Positions 4,090 to 10,192 of a stretch of DNA of 58,193 bases are shown one piece after another. This DNA is from Clostridia bacterium. Lineage in GTDB: Bacteria > Bacillota > Clostridia > Peptostreptococcales > Acidaminobacteraceae. The translations under genes and the position numbers were made by a program. The notes under the pieces are model-generated. The model had not been told where the DNA came from. It searched no databases and saw nothing but the letters and a program-made list of their open reading frames with translations. Location of the stretch: assembly GCA_014859095.1 (NCBI GenBank), contig JACUUV010000013.1, forward strand, positions 1 to 58,193, read 5' to 3'. Positions within the stretch are counted from its first letter, which is position 1, and each line of letters starts with the position of its first letter.

Positions 4090-4194
<105 letters not shown>

Positions 4195-5060: not shown

Positions 5061-6059
5061 ATGTCCATCAAAACGAAAATTTTTATTTCAAAATCGACCA
5101 ATCCGTGGTTCAATCTAGCTTATGAGGAGCAATTGGTAGGTGAAGTCGCAAAAGATGAGGTGTATCTTTATTTATGGCAAAACCAACATACTGTTGTAAT
5201 AGGTAAACATCAAAATCCATGGCGTGAGATTCTTGTGTCAGATCTCGAGAAGGATATGGGAAAAGTGGCCAGACGCCTATCCGGAGGTGGTGCCGTCTAT
5301 CATGATCTCGGCAATCTTAATTTCACTTTTGTCATGAACAGGAAAAACGAAGATTTGCACAAACAGCTTAAAGTGATAGTCGAAGGTGTCAAAAAACTTG
5401 GCATCGATGCTGAATTTTCAGGTAGGAACGACATCTTGGCGGAGGGCAGGAAATTTTCTGGAAATGCTTTTTATTATGGCAAGGAAAACTACTATCACCA
5501 TGGAACGATTTTAGTGGATGTTGACATGAGTAGTCTTGGAAAATATCTCAATGTTTCCATGAAAAAACTGAGCGCAAAAGGCGTTGAATCTGTAAAATCC
5601 AGGGTCATCAATCTTAAAGAACTCAATCCGGACATGACGATCCAAAGCACAATGGATTCTGTTATAGAGGCATTTGAGGAAATTTATGGCATTGCTGATT
5701 CCGTGACGCATATTTCAGAGGAAACTGCATCTGAAAATGCTAAAGAGCGTTATCATCATTATGCTTCATGGGACTGGAGATTTGGAAAGACCCCTTCTTT
5801 TGATGTGACTTTTGAAGAGAAGTTCACTTGGGGCGAACTGGTGATCAGTTTCAAACTCAAAGGGGCAATTATTGAGGAAAGCGGCATTTTTTCCGATGCC
5901 ATGTCCACCGATCTTGTCGAAAGCATCGATGGTGTGTTCAATGGTGTCAAACTTGAGAAGGAAGCGCTTGTGGGCGCACTGAAAAAAGCTAATGTGGATG
6001 AGGCGCATCAAGCGATGCTGGATGATGTGTCAGGCTGGCTATCGACTTTGCCGATTTAG
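5061..6059 (+). CDS. lplA: Lipoate-protein ligase A
   Basis: This enzyme attaches lipoate to carrier proteins such as GcvH or 2-oxoacid dehydrogenase E2 by way of lipoyl-AMP. The catalytic-core motif RRLSGGGAVYHD is at residues 71-82, followed by GNLNFTF. GRNDI...GRKFSGNAFY, also conserved in LplA, is near 135-155. The 332-aa length fits the two-domain form with a C-terminal accessory domain. Its ribosome binding site AGGAGG lies 7 nt before the ATG. The stop codon directly abuts the left arm of a hairpin array. No lipoylated target gene is in the window. Confidence 0.92.
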   Translation: MSIKTKIFISKSTNPWFNLAYEEQLVGEVAKDEVYLYLWQNQHTVVIGKHQNPWREILVSDLEKDMGKVARRLSGGGAVYHDLGNLNFTFVMNRKNEDLHKQLKVIVEGVKKLGIDAEFSGRNDILAEGRKFSGNAFYYGKENYYHHGTILVDVDMSSLGKYLNVSMKKLSAKGVESVKSRVINLKELNPDMTIQSTMDSVIEAFEEIYGIADSVTHISEETASENAKERYHHYASWDWRFGKTPSFDVTFEEKFTWGELVISFKLKGAIIEESGIFSDAMSTDLVESIDGVFNGVKLEKEALVGALKKANVDEAHQAMLDDVSGWLSTLPI

Positions 6060-6061
6060 TA

Positions 6062-6167
6062 GCGCGCTCTTTTTATCGCGCGCGGTGGTTTTGTGCCCAT
6101 TCGGGCACAGTGGTTTTGCGCCTTTGCAGGCGCAGCAGTATTGCACTCTTCGAGTACAGTGGTTAGG
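6062..6167. repeat. Left arm of an inverted hairpin array: four hairpins joined by GTGGTTTT-type linkers
   Basis: Four short hairpins follow one another: GCGCGC stem (6062-6083), GTGCCC/GGGCAC (6093-6108), GCGCCT/AGGCGC (6118-6133) and GCACTC/GAGTAC (6143-6157, one mismatch). They are separated by the 9-nt linkers GGTGGTTTT, AGTGGTTTT and AGCAGTATT, giving a 25-nt period; a last linker copy AGTGGTTAGG ends the arm. Loops are 3-4 nt except in the outermost hairpin. Stem sequences differ from unit to unit but pairing is kept. The right arm at 6250-6344 is an inverted, diverged copy. The family is not one I recognise. Confidence 0.85.
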
Positions 6168-6199
6168 AAGAGAATAAGTTCAAAACATACACACTTAAC

Positions 6200-6229
6200 T
6201 GGCCAGTCATTCATGACTGGTCAATTTTT
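6200..6229 (+). terminator. Terminator at the centre of the inverted hairpin array
   Basis: TGGCCAGTCAT pairs with ATGACTGGTCA (one G-U) around a tiny loop, followed by five T at 6225-6229. It probably ends lplA transcription. It lies exactly between the two hairpin arms. Confidence 0.75.
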
Positions 6230-6249
6230 ATTTGACTTTCCCAACTACT

Positions 6250-6344
6250 GTGCTCGAAGAGCACAAAACCACTGCGTTCGCTTGAACGCAAAACCACTGC
6301 ACCCATGTGGGTGCAAAACCACCGTGCGCGCCTTAACAGCGCAC
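6250..6344. repeat. Right arm of the inverted hairpin array: four hairpins joined by AAAACCAC linkers
   Basis: The hairpins are GTGCTC/GAGCAC (6250-6264), GCGTTC/GAACGC (6274-6289), GCACCC/GGGTGC (6299-6314) and GTGCGC/GCGCAC (6324-6344). They are separated by AAAACCACT, AAAACCACT and AAAACCACC. Every stem is a perfect 6-bp match. Read on the reverse strand the arm aligns unit by unit with the left arm, with paired substitutions such as GTGCCC/GGGCAC against GCACCC/GGGTGC. The possible pflB promoter starts about 40 nt further right. Confidence 0.85.
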
Positions 6345-6381
6345 ACTATTAACTCTTCGTCACATTTGCAAATTATCGCTT

Positions 6382-6403
6382 TTCTGTGCGCCCAGTCACA
6401 GAA
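6382..6403. promoter_or_regulatory. 22-bp palindrome, candidate Crp/Fnr-family operator of pflB
   Basis: TTCTGTG-N8-CACAGAA is a perfect 7-bp inverted repeat with the 22-bp geometry of Crp/Fnr sites (core TGTG-N8-CACA). Its centre, 6392.5, lies about 41.5 bp upstream of the start predicted from the -10 at 6422-6427, the class II activator position. A Crp/Fnr gene lies just downstream of pflBA. The site is seen; the regulator-site pairing is inference. Confidence 0.55.
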
Positions 6404-6470: not shown

Positions 6471-8690
6471 ATGATAAAGGACAAAATTGATGTAAGGGAC
6501 TTCATACAGAAAAATTATAAGCCTTACACAGGAGATGATTCATTCCTTTGTGGAAAAACAGAAAAGACAAAAGTCATCTGGGACAAAGCCGAAGCCTTGA
6601 TCGAAGAGGAAATCGAAAAAGGAATCGTTGATATTGAGACAACTGTTTTTTCTGGCATCGCCAATTTTGAAGCGGGATACATCGATAGGGCAAATGAAGT
6701 CGTGGTCGGGTTTCAAACGGATGCGCCGCTTAAGAGAATCATGAACCCTTATGGTGGTTTCAGAATGCTTGAATCTTCACTTAAGGCTTACGATTACACG
6801 ATGAGCGATGAGATGTCAGATAGGTTCCAAGAATTCCGTAGAACGCATAACGATGGCGTTTTCGGTGCTTATACTGACGAAATGAAGCTTGTAAGAAGTG
6901 TAGGTCTTCTCACAGGACTTCCAGATGCCTACGGTAGGGGTAGGATTATAGGTGATTACAGAAGAATCGCTCTCTACGGTACCGAGCGATTGATTTCAGA
7001 AAAACTTAGAGATTTCAACGAACTTTCAAATGCACCGGCGATTGAAGACATGATCAAATCAAGAGAAGAACTTTCCATGCAGATTGAAGCACTAAAAGCG
7101 ATGGAAATCATGGCAAAAGCATATGAATATGACATATCAAAGCCGGCACAAAATGCCAATGAAGCGGTACAGCACTTTTACTTCGGATATTTGGCGGCAA
7201 TCAAAGAAAACAACGGTGCTGCGATGTCACTTGGAAGAAACACAGCATTTCTTGATGTTTTCATTGAACGCGATATTGAAAAGGGAATTTTGACAGAAGA
7301 AAGTGCACAGGAGTTGATCGACCAGCTGGTGATCAAACTCAGAATGGTAAGACATCTCAGAACCCCCGATTACAACACGCTTTTCGCAGGAGATCCCACT
7401 TGGGTGACCGAGTCCATAGGCGGAATGGGAGTAGATGGGAGACCACTGGTCACCAAAACCGCGTATAGATTTTTGAATACTTTGACCAACCTTACTCCTG
7501 CACCAGAACCGAACATGACTGTGCTTTGGTCGAAAGACCTTCCTGACAATTTCAAGCGCTATTGTGCAAAAATGTCCATAGAAACAGGTGCGATCCAATA
7601 TGAGAATGATGATCTGATGCGTCCGATTTATGGGGACGATTACGGTATTGCCTGCTGTGTTTCACCGATGAAAATCGGGAAGGATATGCAATTTTTCGGA
7701 GCGAGGACAAATCTGGCGAAAGCACTTCTATACAGCGTCAACGAAGGTAAAGATGAGTTCAAGTTCTCTAAGGACGGAAGTGTGATAGAAGTGGTCAGCG
7801 GCATTGAACCACTGAAGTCGGATGGACCACTCATCTATGATGAGGTTATGGACCGATTCAAGGCTGTCATGGACAAACTGGCAGGGATTTACGTGAATAC
7901 GATGAACACAATCCACTGTATGCACGATAAATATGCCTATGAAAGTGGACAAATGGCACTTCACGACTCATCTGTCCACAGGTATATGGCGTTTGGCGTG
8001 GCAGGACTTTCAATCATCGCAGATTCGCTCAGCGCCATCAAATACGCGAAGGTCACTCCTGTTAGAAATGAACAAGGCATTGCAGTGGATTTTAAAATCG
8101 ATGGTGAGTTTCCGATGTTCGGAAATGATGATGACAGAGCCGATCAGCTGGCAGTTGAAGTACTTGAGTATTTTTCGAAAGAGCTTAAGAAGCACCAGAC
8201 CTATAGAAATGCTGAGCACACATTATCCGTATTGACCATCACTTCCAATGTGGTCTACGGTAAAAAAACGGGAGCTACCCCAGACGGGCGTGGTAAAGGC
8301 GAACCATTTGCACCTGGAGCGAATCCTATGCATGGACGCGACACCAAGGGTGCGCTTGCATCGCTCAACTCGGTATCAAAATTGCCGTTTGAAGGGGTTT
8401 GTCAGGATGGTATCTCAAATACTTTCTCGATTGTTCCGGCAGCACTTGGAAGAGTGGAATCGGACCGAAGAAACAATTTGGCAGGCATACTTGACGGTTA
8501 CTTTGCTAAAAAGGCATTCCATCTCAATGTCAATGTATTGTCCAGAGAACTGTTGATGGATGCTATCGCGAATCCTTCAAAGTATCCTACTCTGACCATC
8601 AGGGTTTCGGGATATGCAGTGCACTTCAATCGATTGACGAGAGAGCAAAAAGAGGAAGTCATCAAAAGGACTTTCCACGAAAGGGTGTAA
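6471..8690 (+). CDS. pflB: Formate C-acetyltransferase (pyruvate formate-lyase)
   Basis: This glycyl-radical enzyme cleaves pyruvate plus CoA to acetyl-CoA and formate in anaerobic fermentation. Adjacent catalytic cysteines occur at 395-396 in GIACCVSPM, and the C-terminal radical loop RVSGYAV has Gly714, 25 residues from the end. The start was put at the ATG at 6471, 8-9 nt after GGAGG, giving 739 aa, normal for PFL. The frame is open much further upstream, but only through the hairpin array and promoter, so a longer product is not credible. The activase gene follows 4 bp after the stop codon. Oxygen sensitivity implies an anaerobic host. Confidence 0.96.
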
Positions 8691-9472: not shown

Positions 9473-10192
9473 ATCAGCGCAAGAAAATGTACTCGTGAAA
9501 ATTGCATAAACTGTGGAAAACTGATGTGTATCAACAACATACCGCTGCTTTCCAATCTCACAAATGAAGAAATTGAAAAAGTTTCAATTGGCGTTTCCTC
9601 TGAAACTTATAAAAAAGGCGAAATTGTTTTCAATCGAGGGGACAAAGCCGACAAGCTTTATATTGTGTGCTCCGGGAAAATAAAAATCTTTAAAAATACC
9701 ATTGAAGGCAAAGAGCAAATTCTTTATATACTGTCTGAAGGTGACTTCATAGGCGCTTTCAACCTGCTCAAGGAAGATGAGTTCGATTTCAATGCTGTGG
9801 CGCTTGAAAATACAACGGTGAGTATGCTTGAGAAATCCTCGTTCGATGAGATTGTGCTATCGAACCCGAGCATCACACTCAAGATATTTGAAAAGGCTTA
9901 CGAGAGAATCATAAAAGCCGAGAGTCTTGTAGAACGCCTTTCCAGCAGCAATCCCGACGCCAAAGTGATCGGACTGCTCGTGGACCTTTGTGAAAATTTC
10001 GGCACTCAGTCAGAAGATGGAATATTGCTTACACTCAGTATCAATAGAGAGGAAATGGGCAGTTATGCCGGTATCGCCAGGGAGACCATGTCCAGAAAAC
10101 TACAGCTTTTTCAAGAAATGGGCTTGATTCGCTTAATCGGCATGAAAAAAATACTGATCTACGATGTCTTAAAACTTAAAAGTATGATTTGA
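9473..10192 (+). CDS. Crp/Fnr-family regulator with N-terminal cysteine cluster; start codon irregular
   Basis: The product has a cyclic-nucleotide-binding-type beta-barrel (GEIVFNRGDKADKLYIVCSGKIKI) and a C-terminal Crp helix-turn-helix (NREEMGSYAGIARETMSRKL). The only ordinary start is the ATG at 9524 (222 aa), with a poor ribosome binding site. The same frame reads upstream without a stop through KCTRENCINCGKLMC, a C-x4-C-x2-C-x4-C pattern like Fnr iron-sulfur ligands. A strong AAAGGTGAT at 9461-9469 fits a start at about 9473 (ATC). Either a rare start codon is used, or one T is missing in the run at 9469-9472, which would restore a GTG start at 9465. It probably senses oxygen or redox state and may control pflBA. 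Confidence 0.8.
   Translation: MSARKCTRENCINCGKLMCINNIPLLSNLTNEEIEKVSIGVSSETYKKGEIVFNRGDKADKLYIVCSGKIKIFKNTIEGKEQILYILSEGDFIGAFNLLKEDEFDFNAVALENTTVSMLEKSSFDEIVLSNPSITLKIFEKAYERIIKAESLVERLSSSNPDAKVIGLLVDLCENFGTQSEDGILLTLSINREEMGSYAGIARETMSRKLQLFQEMGLIRLIGMKKILIYDVLKLKSMI

Follow-up and report, generated by a model that had tools for sequence, protein, structure and literature searches.

The window analysed here is a 58-kb stretch of DNA (58,193 nucleotides, nt), contig C40 of a 2.98-Mb assembly in 134 contigs from a member of the Acidaminobacteraceae, hereafter our own genome (G000). In it the genes lplA and pflB lie in tandem, followed by pflA and a gene of the Crp/Fnr type (Pfam and NCBIfam assignments). 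Between lplA and pflB we found an element of two facing arrays of short hairpins, four in each, which spans positions 6062-6346 and encloses a terminator-like hairpin 3' of lplA. Its repeat unit is a 7-nt tag, GTRGTTT, followed by a short palindrome; the units run head to tail, and the inner ones recur every 24-25 nt. The coordinates bear out the original prediction, made from the letters of the window, of four plus four hairpins with this period around a terminator. The constant spacing that it described also holds, although what it took for a 9-nt linker is better parsed as the 7-nt tag. The features of the locus, including open reading frames (ORFs), are as follows (bp, base pairs):

5061-6059, plus strand: lplA ORF, stop codon at 6057-6059 (Pfam and NCBIfam)
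6062-6083, plus strand: outer hairpin L1, 6-bp stem and 10-nt loop, starting 3 nt past the lplA stop codon, with GTAG directly before it
6085-6091, plus strand: tag GTGGTTT (unit parsing)
6092-6109, plus strand: hairpin L2, stem TGTGCCC/GGGCACA (unit parsing, covariance model)
6110-6116, plus strand: tag GTGGTTT (unit parsing)
6117-6134, plus strand: hairpin L3, stem TGCGCCT/AGGCGCA (unit parsing, covariance model)
6135-6141, plus strand: tag GCAGTAT (unit parsing)
6142-6158, plus strand: hairpin L4, stem TGCACTC/GAGTACA with one C-A mismatch (unit parsing, covariance model)
6159-6172, plus strand: inner border GTGGTTAGGAAGAG, common to other elements (border-pattern search)
6200-6232, plus strand: central hairpin resembling an intrinsic terminator, 10 bp with a 4-nt loop, then a T-run
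6238-6248, minus strand: inner border of the right arm, GTAGTTGGGAA (comparison with relatives)
6249-6265, minus strand: inner hairpin R4, stem TGTGCTC/GAGCACA (unit parsing, covariance model)
6273-6290, minus strand: hairpin R3, stem TGCGTTC/GAACGCA (unit parsing, covariance model)
6298-6315, minus strand: hairpin R2, stem TGCACCC/GGGTGCA (unit parsing, covariance model)
6324-6346, minus strand: outer hairpin R1, 9-bp stem and 5-nt loop (folding)
6471-8690, plus strand: pflB, formate C-acetyltransferase, the downstream gene, start taken as 6471 (Pfam and NCBIfam)

The tags of this element read GTGGTTT, GCAGTAT, GTGGTTA and GTAGTTG, and the mismatched position of L4 is an intact pair in a relative. 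The right arm, between the terminator and pflB, mirrors the order of the left. The two arms (6077-6169 and 6238-6330) are 74% complementary across 93 nt and form the longest of the four inverted repeats in the window (at least 24 nt, within 500 nt).

Further copies and conservation of the hairpins

The element recurs elsewhere; a lack of further copies and of kept pairing, which would have refuted the original prediction, is not what the searches showed. A DNA search of our own genome returned nine matches: the query, its inverted half and seven others. A covariance model, here called model R1, was built from 16 seed units hand-picked by eye at six genome places and gave 25 matches in our own genome at E<=1. 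It was positive in 3 of 31 relatives, 1 of 391 genomes of the class (our own) and 3 of 393 genomes of the order. The positives are three congeners of one genus, and no match was found outside that genus in these samples, which overlap and of which the class and order sets were searched with stricter filters that lose weak matches. The model was built on the 7-bp unit type and missed many 5-bp (TTGGC) units. Our genus set comprised our own genome, SMBSF52 (G001), LH_M70 (G002) and a fourth genome, G003; the closest matches to pflB are in the metagenome-assembled genomes SMBSF52 (95%) and LH_M70 (92%), which identical sequence ties to G001 and G002 of the set.

Using the model matches and the inner-border pattern, we defined 35 elements by hand, 15 in our own genome, 11 in G001 and 9 in G002. 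Left out were three array-free border hits at one orthologous locus (own C48, G001 C150, G002 C7), G001 C76, which belongs to the element already counted as G001 C14 and forms its opposite end, five further border hits (G001 C16 and C20, G002 C83, G003 C2 and C16) and other low-scoring tag matches. A parser for palindromes with a tag on either side yielded 112 units; four were dropped by eye as spurious, and the remaining 108 lie in 31 elements. The parser's threshold was reached by 294 of 21,600 shuffled segments. The elements without parsed hairpins (own C125, G002 C47, C75 and C90) hold tag heptads or an imperfect hairpin instead, and in some elements GTRGTTR heptads make up most of the sequence while hairpins are few or absent.

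Units occur at many unrelated gene pairs. Head-to-tail arrays are common, with up to 4-5 units per arm, and single-arm elements occur as well. GTRG is present in 90 of the 108 units, the other 18 having GCAG, GTTGG, GTTAG or GTCTG variants, in a parse that required tag-like anchors. Most units have a stem of 5 or 7 bp and a loop of 3-5 nt, and tag and stem are separated by 3 nt (TTT) if only Watson-Crick pairs are counted, or by 2 nt with the outer T-G pair. At one place in G002 (C59, 1950-2800) two array elements surround a small CsoR-like ORF, read as such from its translation, where our own genome and G001 have one element. A phage or plasmid origin was rejected: there was no phage match at E<=1, plasmids gave a single 30-nt match, at chance level, and six viral contigs with two tags were judged by eye to be low-complexity or coding sequence without these hairpins.

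Pairing is kept while the stem letters change. Of the 112 cells of the 16 seed units, 99.1% are paired; changes were two-sided in 17 cases and one-sided in none. None of 500 shuffles matched these values, although 192 of 500 matched the number of pair types. The claim in the original prediction that nearly all pairs are kept through double changes agrees with these counts, with the exception of the C-A mismatch in L4. Across the 108 units, 661 of 669 cells are Watson-Crick and eight are not (three C-A, three T-G, one T-C, one C-T); since the parser rewards Watson-Crick pairs, this high paired share is partly built in, but the equality of G-T and A-C cells does not follow from the parser. Among the units, 57 are 17-19 nt long; they reduce to 21 distinct stems, which, compared with the commonest pair at each position, show 29 two-sided changes, 3 one-sided changes and 7 non-standard cells, the last including 8-nt-loop units forced into seven pairs.

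Neighbouring units within an arm resemble each other no more than random units do (0.62 versus 0.61), so there is no sign of recent tandem spread, and tandem duplication of units was rejected. Equal-ranking units of the left and right arms are barely more alike than units of different elements (P = 0.04 for 8 own elements, P = 0.12 for 12 elements). The view of the arms as inverted copies is thus right only in part, and recent inverted copying is weak at best.

We aligned 11 orthologous element pairs, which offered 37 comparable units besides 6 that could not be mapped and 1 of unequal length. Five of the 37 were removed by eye as non-orthologous, leaving 32 hairpins, among which three own C100 units are counted twice (two G001 copies). 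Stems had changed at 6 of 398 sites (1.5%), four of them single changes and the other two a double Watson-Crick change, versus 25 of 130 sites (19%) in equal-length loops (Fisher p = 1.7e-11); 15 of the 32 loops differ. With all 37 pairs, non-orthologous ones included, the direction was the same (stems 32/460, loops 36/145), and tags differed at 30 of 259 sites. Because stems change far less than loops between orthologues, selection for structure is supported, and the best reading of these rates is that the hairpin itself is selected, beyond what neutral copying by itself would give. The two causes named at the outset, selection for structure or structure-dependent copying, have therefore fared differently: the first gains support and a purely neutral form of the second does not, while copying may still supply the paired changes.

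Whole units are also gained or lost, as own C100 has one extra 25-nt unit compared with both G001 copies. In a single case, a unit with stem TGCGGAC, the loops across the three genomes are ccaa (our own), tagg and ttgc; ccaa is nearer the reverse complements of the other two than their direct forms, possibly a loop inversion.

The orthologous lplA-pflB gaps differ between congeners. In G003, whose pflB is 70% identical versus 90-94% for the other two congeners, inspection by eye showed an lplA-like gene ending ahead of a plain hairpin and T-run, then pflB, with no arms; this genome is too diverged to define insertion joints. In LH_M70 an L1-like hairpin and a matching terminator core are kept, and GCAGG and GGGGACAGG/GGTACC modules flank the terminator on both sides, replacing the tag-hairpin units. 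Given the arm-less G003 and the different modules of LH_M70, the arms were probably acquired, in two versions, once G003 had split off. The other module type stands in both arms of LH_M70, as if they had changed together.

Position of the arrays and a possible 3'-end role

Both neighbouring ORFs could be called for 27 of the 35 elements, with 11 in convergent, 14 in tandem and 2 in divergent contexts, and 8 elements lie at contig ends; the ORF calls used length as their only criterion, so that some neighbours may be misassigned. Arrays often stand within tens of nt of a stop codon. A terminator-like hairpin lies at the centre of 17 of the 24 elements tested (11 under a strict rule, 13 under a looser one), versus 4 (strict) and 18 (looser) of 480 shuffled centres. 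Among 16 tandem elements with units, the sense arm is larger in 11, equal in 4 and smaller in 1 (37 versus 22 units), a sample that is non-independent because it includes orthologues. In our own genome alone the sense excess is 6:0 with two ties (P = 0.03), or 5:0 without own C14.

Together, the sense bias, the closeness to stop codons and the terminator-like centres favour a role at the 3' end of transcripts. Our reading, which we put forward tentatively, is that these are low-copy, lineage-specific tagged mini-palindromes, akin to repetitive extragenic palindromic sequences (REPs) and bacterial interspersed mosaic elements (BIMEs), and that they probably act as 3'-end structures; we infer both this function and their mobility. 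Between a gene's stop codon and its terminator the units follow one another head to tail, and the far side of the terminator often carries a second array that faces the first. The sense array would work mainly where the upstream transcript ends, its run of stable stems between stop codon and terminator slowing 3'-to-5' decay and backing up termination. The facing array would do likewise on the opposite strand, for a convergent gene or for antisense or readthrough transcripts. BIMEs of E. coli are 3'-end mRNA stabilisers with stable stems behind the stop codon; the proposed way of working is alike, whereas sequence, host phylum and the arrangement around a terminator are different. As to spread, a single-strand HUH enzyme resembling REP-associated tyrosine transposases (RAYTs) and acting on GTRG-hairpins would be the obvious candidate, although none was found linked to the arrays at the loci described below.

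A transcript that stops at the terminator is predicted to form L1-L3, three of the four left hairpins, but not the mismatched L4, and an opposite-strand transcript that stops there forms all four right hairpins. The RNA folds of the left arm (z = -4.8) and of the right arm (z = -3.6), each with the terminator, were as good in none of 200 shuffles. Positions 6040-6360 gave z = -16.0, equalled by none of 100 shuffles; this whole 321-nt region folds as one long hairpin (-158.5 kcal/mol) in which the arms pair together and the mini-hairpins are not formed.

Several observations weigh against a 3'-end role. In read-through RNA, arm pairs with arm in the fold just described. Tandem contexts preserve the antisense arm too, and in the window it is no less intact than the sense arm. 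Selection on one RNA strand should favour G-T pairs, yet G-T cells are no commoner than A-C cells (3 versus 3 of 669, with a parser that penalises both alike). The sense bias uses three contexts set by hand (G001 C14, C248 and C197, from orthology), and own C14 involves a doubtful ORF. Two elements lie between divergently called ORFs, and 7 of 24 centres have no terminator-like hairpin under either rule. Given the intact antisense arm and the lack of a G-T excess, a role on both strands or in DNA is possible.

Relation to known repeats and alternative explanations

An Rfam scan of the window found no family at gathering score over the arrays; its only match was a SAM riboswitch at 4091-4193, minus strand, before an ABC-transporter ATPase gene. 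The nearest known repeats are GTAG-type REPs, which have a GTRG tag and subfamilies with alternative complementary stem residues, lie mostly in convergent or tandem ORF gaps near 3' ends, and can fold into one large structure when copies face each other (PMC3733652). Our family has in common with GTAG REPs and BIMEs the GTRG tag ahead of a short-looped palindrome of 5-9 bp, the place near gene 3' ends, paired stem variants and the large fold of facing copies (PMC3733652). Most units fall within the 5-13 bp stems and 2-20 nt loops of GTAG-type REPs, 90 of 108 have the unpaired GTAG/GTRG beside the palindrome, and the copies are likewise dispersed, extragenic and near ORF 3' ends (35 elements, three genomes).

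The gap between tag and stem, 0-2 nt in GTAG-type REPs, falls inside or outside that range here (2 or 3 nt) depending on whether the outer T-G is counted. The differences concern arrangement, pairing and enzyme. GTAG-type REPs occur singly or as inverted dimers, with head-tail dimers absent or rare, whereas head-to-tail arrays are common here; G-T pairs are frequent in them (PMC3733652) and rare in our units; and they are frequently, though not universally, found with a RAYT gene, whereas none is linked here (0/16 loci). Unlike GTAG REPs, our arrays face a terminator and number a few dozen units per genome. The shared tag, size, place and paired stem variants, with another arrangement and G-T content and no RAYT, suggest a new variant of the REP/BIME kind; we read it as a new REP/BIME-like family and do not place it in a named GTAG family. 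The terms clostridi, firmicutes and gram-positive are absent from the main text of PMC3733652.

The units also resemble group 3 REPs of the REPtron/TnpA(REP) type, such as Marinomonas REP-Mb with its perfect 5-bp stem, 4-nt loop and 2-nt distance from the tag (PMC8266576), but no transposase gene flanked by our units was found at 16 Y1_Tnp loci. Repeats of the TIRYT transposases have the consensus GGGGWSAS (PMC3733652). TIRYT-like GGGGACAGG/GGTACC modules occur outside or inside several hairpin elements and flank a RAYT-like gene of our own genome; we take them as a separate module, of which the window element has none.

It is possible, if less likely than a 3'-end role, that the units are mobile DNA first: non-autonomous REP-like palindromes moved by an HUH enzyme of the RAYT/TnpA(REP) type, with an incidental 3'-end effect and with siting at terminators as target choice. 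GTRG in most units and perfect 5-8 bp stems 2-3 nt from the tag come near REP grammar (PMC3733652, PMC6006769), and TnpA(REP) partly tolerates GTGG and changes of stem sequence in vitro (PMC8266576). Moreover, Y1-transposase genes (PF01797) are present in all five genomes searched, arms are present or absent between congeners, and a whole 25-nt unit differs between own C100 and G001. However, for 16 of the 17 Y1_Tnp loci found in these genomes (10 of the 16 in array-bearing genomes), flanks of up to 1.5 kb per side contained no array and no two neighbouring tags. The two RAYT-like proteins of our own genome score below the NCBIfam cut-off (52.5 and 72.8 versus 80 bits), one of their genes being flanked by GGGGACAGG repeats instead; copy number is low, and recent tandem spread left no sign. 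The REP-like character first proposed thus holds for tag, hairpin size and place beside stop codons but not for a transposase link, and the accompanying idea of a miniature inverted-repeat transposon found no direct support.

Two RAYT-like genes (G000:C100:166-507 and G001:C197:4607-4948) are flanked by GGTACC..GGGGACAGG inverted repeats of the TIRYT type (PMC3733652). The second RAYT-like gene of our own genome (G000:C98) is followed by two large CCTGGTTACCGCC..GGCGGT palindromes, at about 2290-2340 and 2530-2590, around a terminator-like hairpin.

We consider it unlikely that the elements form a new terminator-bound class in which facing arrays are selected as structures on both strands, stems are replaceable by one-step paired changes and both arms together can give way, as wholes, to other repeat modules. 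The arm-swap case is lplA-pflB itself, with GTRG arrays in our own genome and SMBSF52 and GGGGACAGG/GCAGG modules in LH_M70 around the matching terminator core. Similarly doubtful is a target at the DNA level, in which hairpins or cruciforms flanking the terminator would be bound by a protein such as gyrase or a nucleoid protein, independently of the direction of transcription. The equal intactness of both window arms, the lack of a G-T excess and the single-stranded DNA fold of the left arm (z = -5.5) are consistent with it, but stems of 6-7 bp are short for cruciform extrusion, and the sense-arm excess in tandem contexts and the closeness to stop codons and terminators suggest a transcript-related role.

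Neutral template switching in replication, by which one hairpin arm is copied onto the other without selection, is very improbable as the sole cause. The predominance of two-sided over one-sided changes in the 21 stems and the few G-T intermediates are what one-step compensation predicts (PMC8794818), but purely neutral copying is not supported because stems should then drift as fast as loops, which they do not among the orthologues, even with all 37 pairs. We also discount, as the least probable, a single giant hairpin RNA that would control pflB as a riboregulator or attenuator: despite the long fold of the 321-nt region, the units recur at many unrelated gene pairs, some one-armed, mini-hairpin pairing is better kept than arm-to-arm pairing, and the conserved stretch ahead of pflB lies on the pflB side of the arms, though with no plus-strand promoter match there.

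At 6384-6401, upstream of pflB, we noted a palindrome CTGTG-N8-CACAG with similar counterparts in relatives; the Crp/Fnr-type gene lies at 9524-10192.

No description of this tag-hairpin repeat, or of REP-like repeats in this lineage, was found in the literature searched, so the family would extend REP-like biology to it. As a compact natural case it keeps hairpin, tag and spacing while the letters of the stems vary, and one small genus supplies orthologues, paralogues and a congener without arms. Selection for structure can thereby be told apart from copying artefacts, and the question can be put whether such REP-like repeats work through RNA or through DNA in Clostridia.
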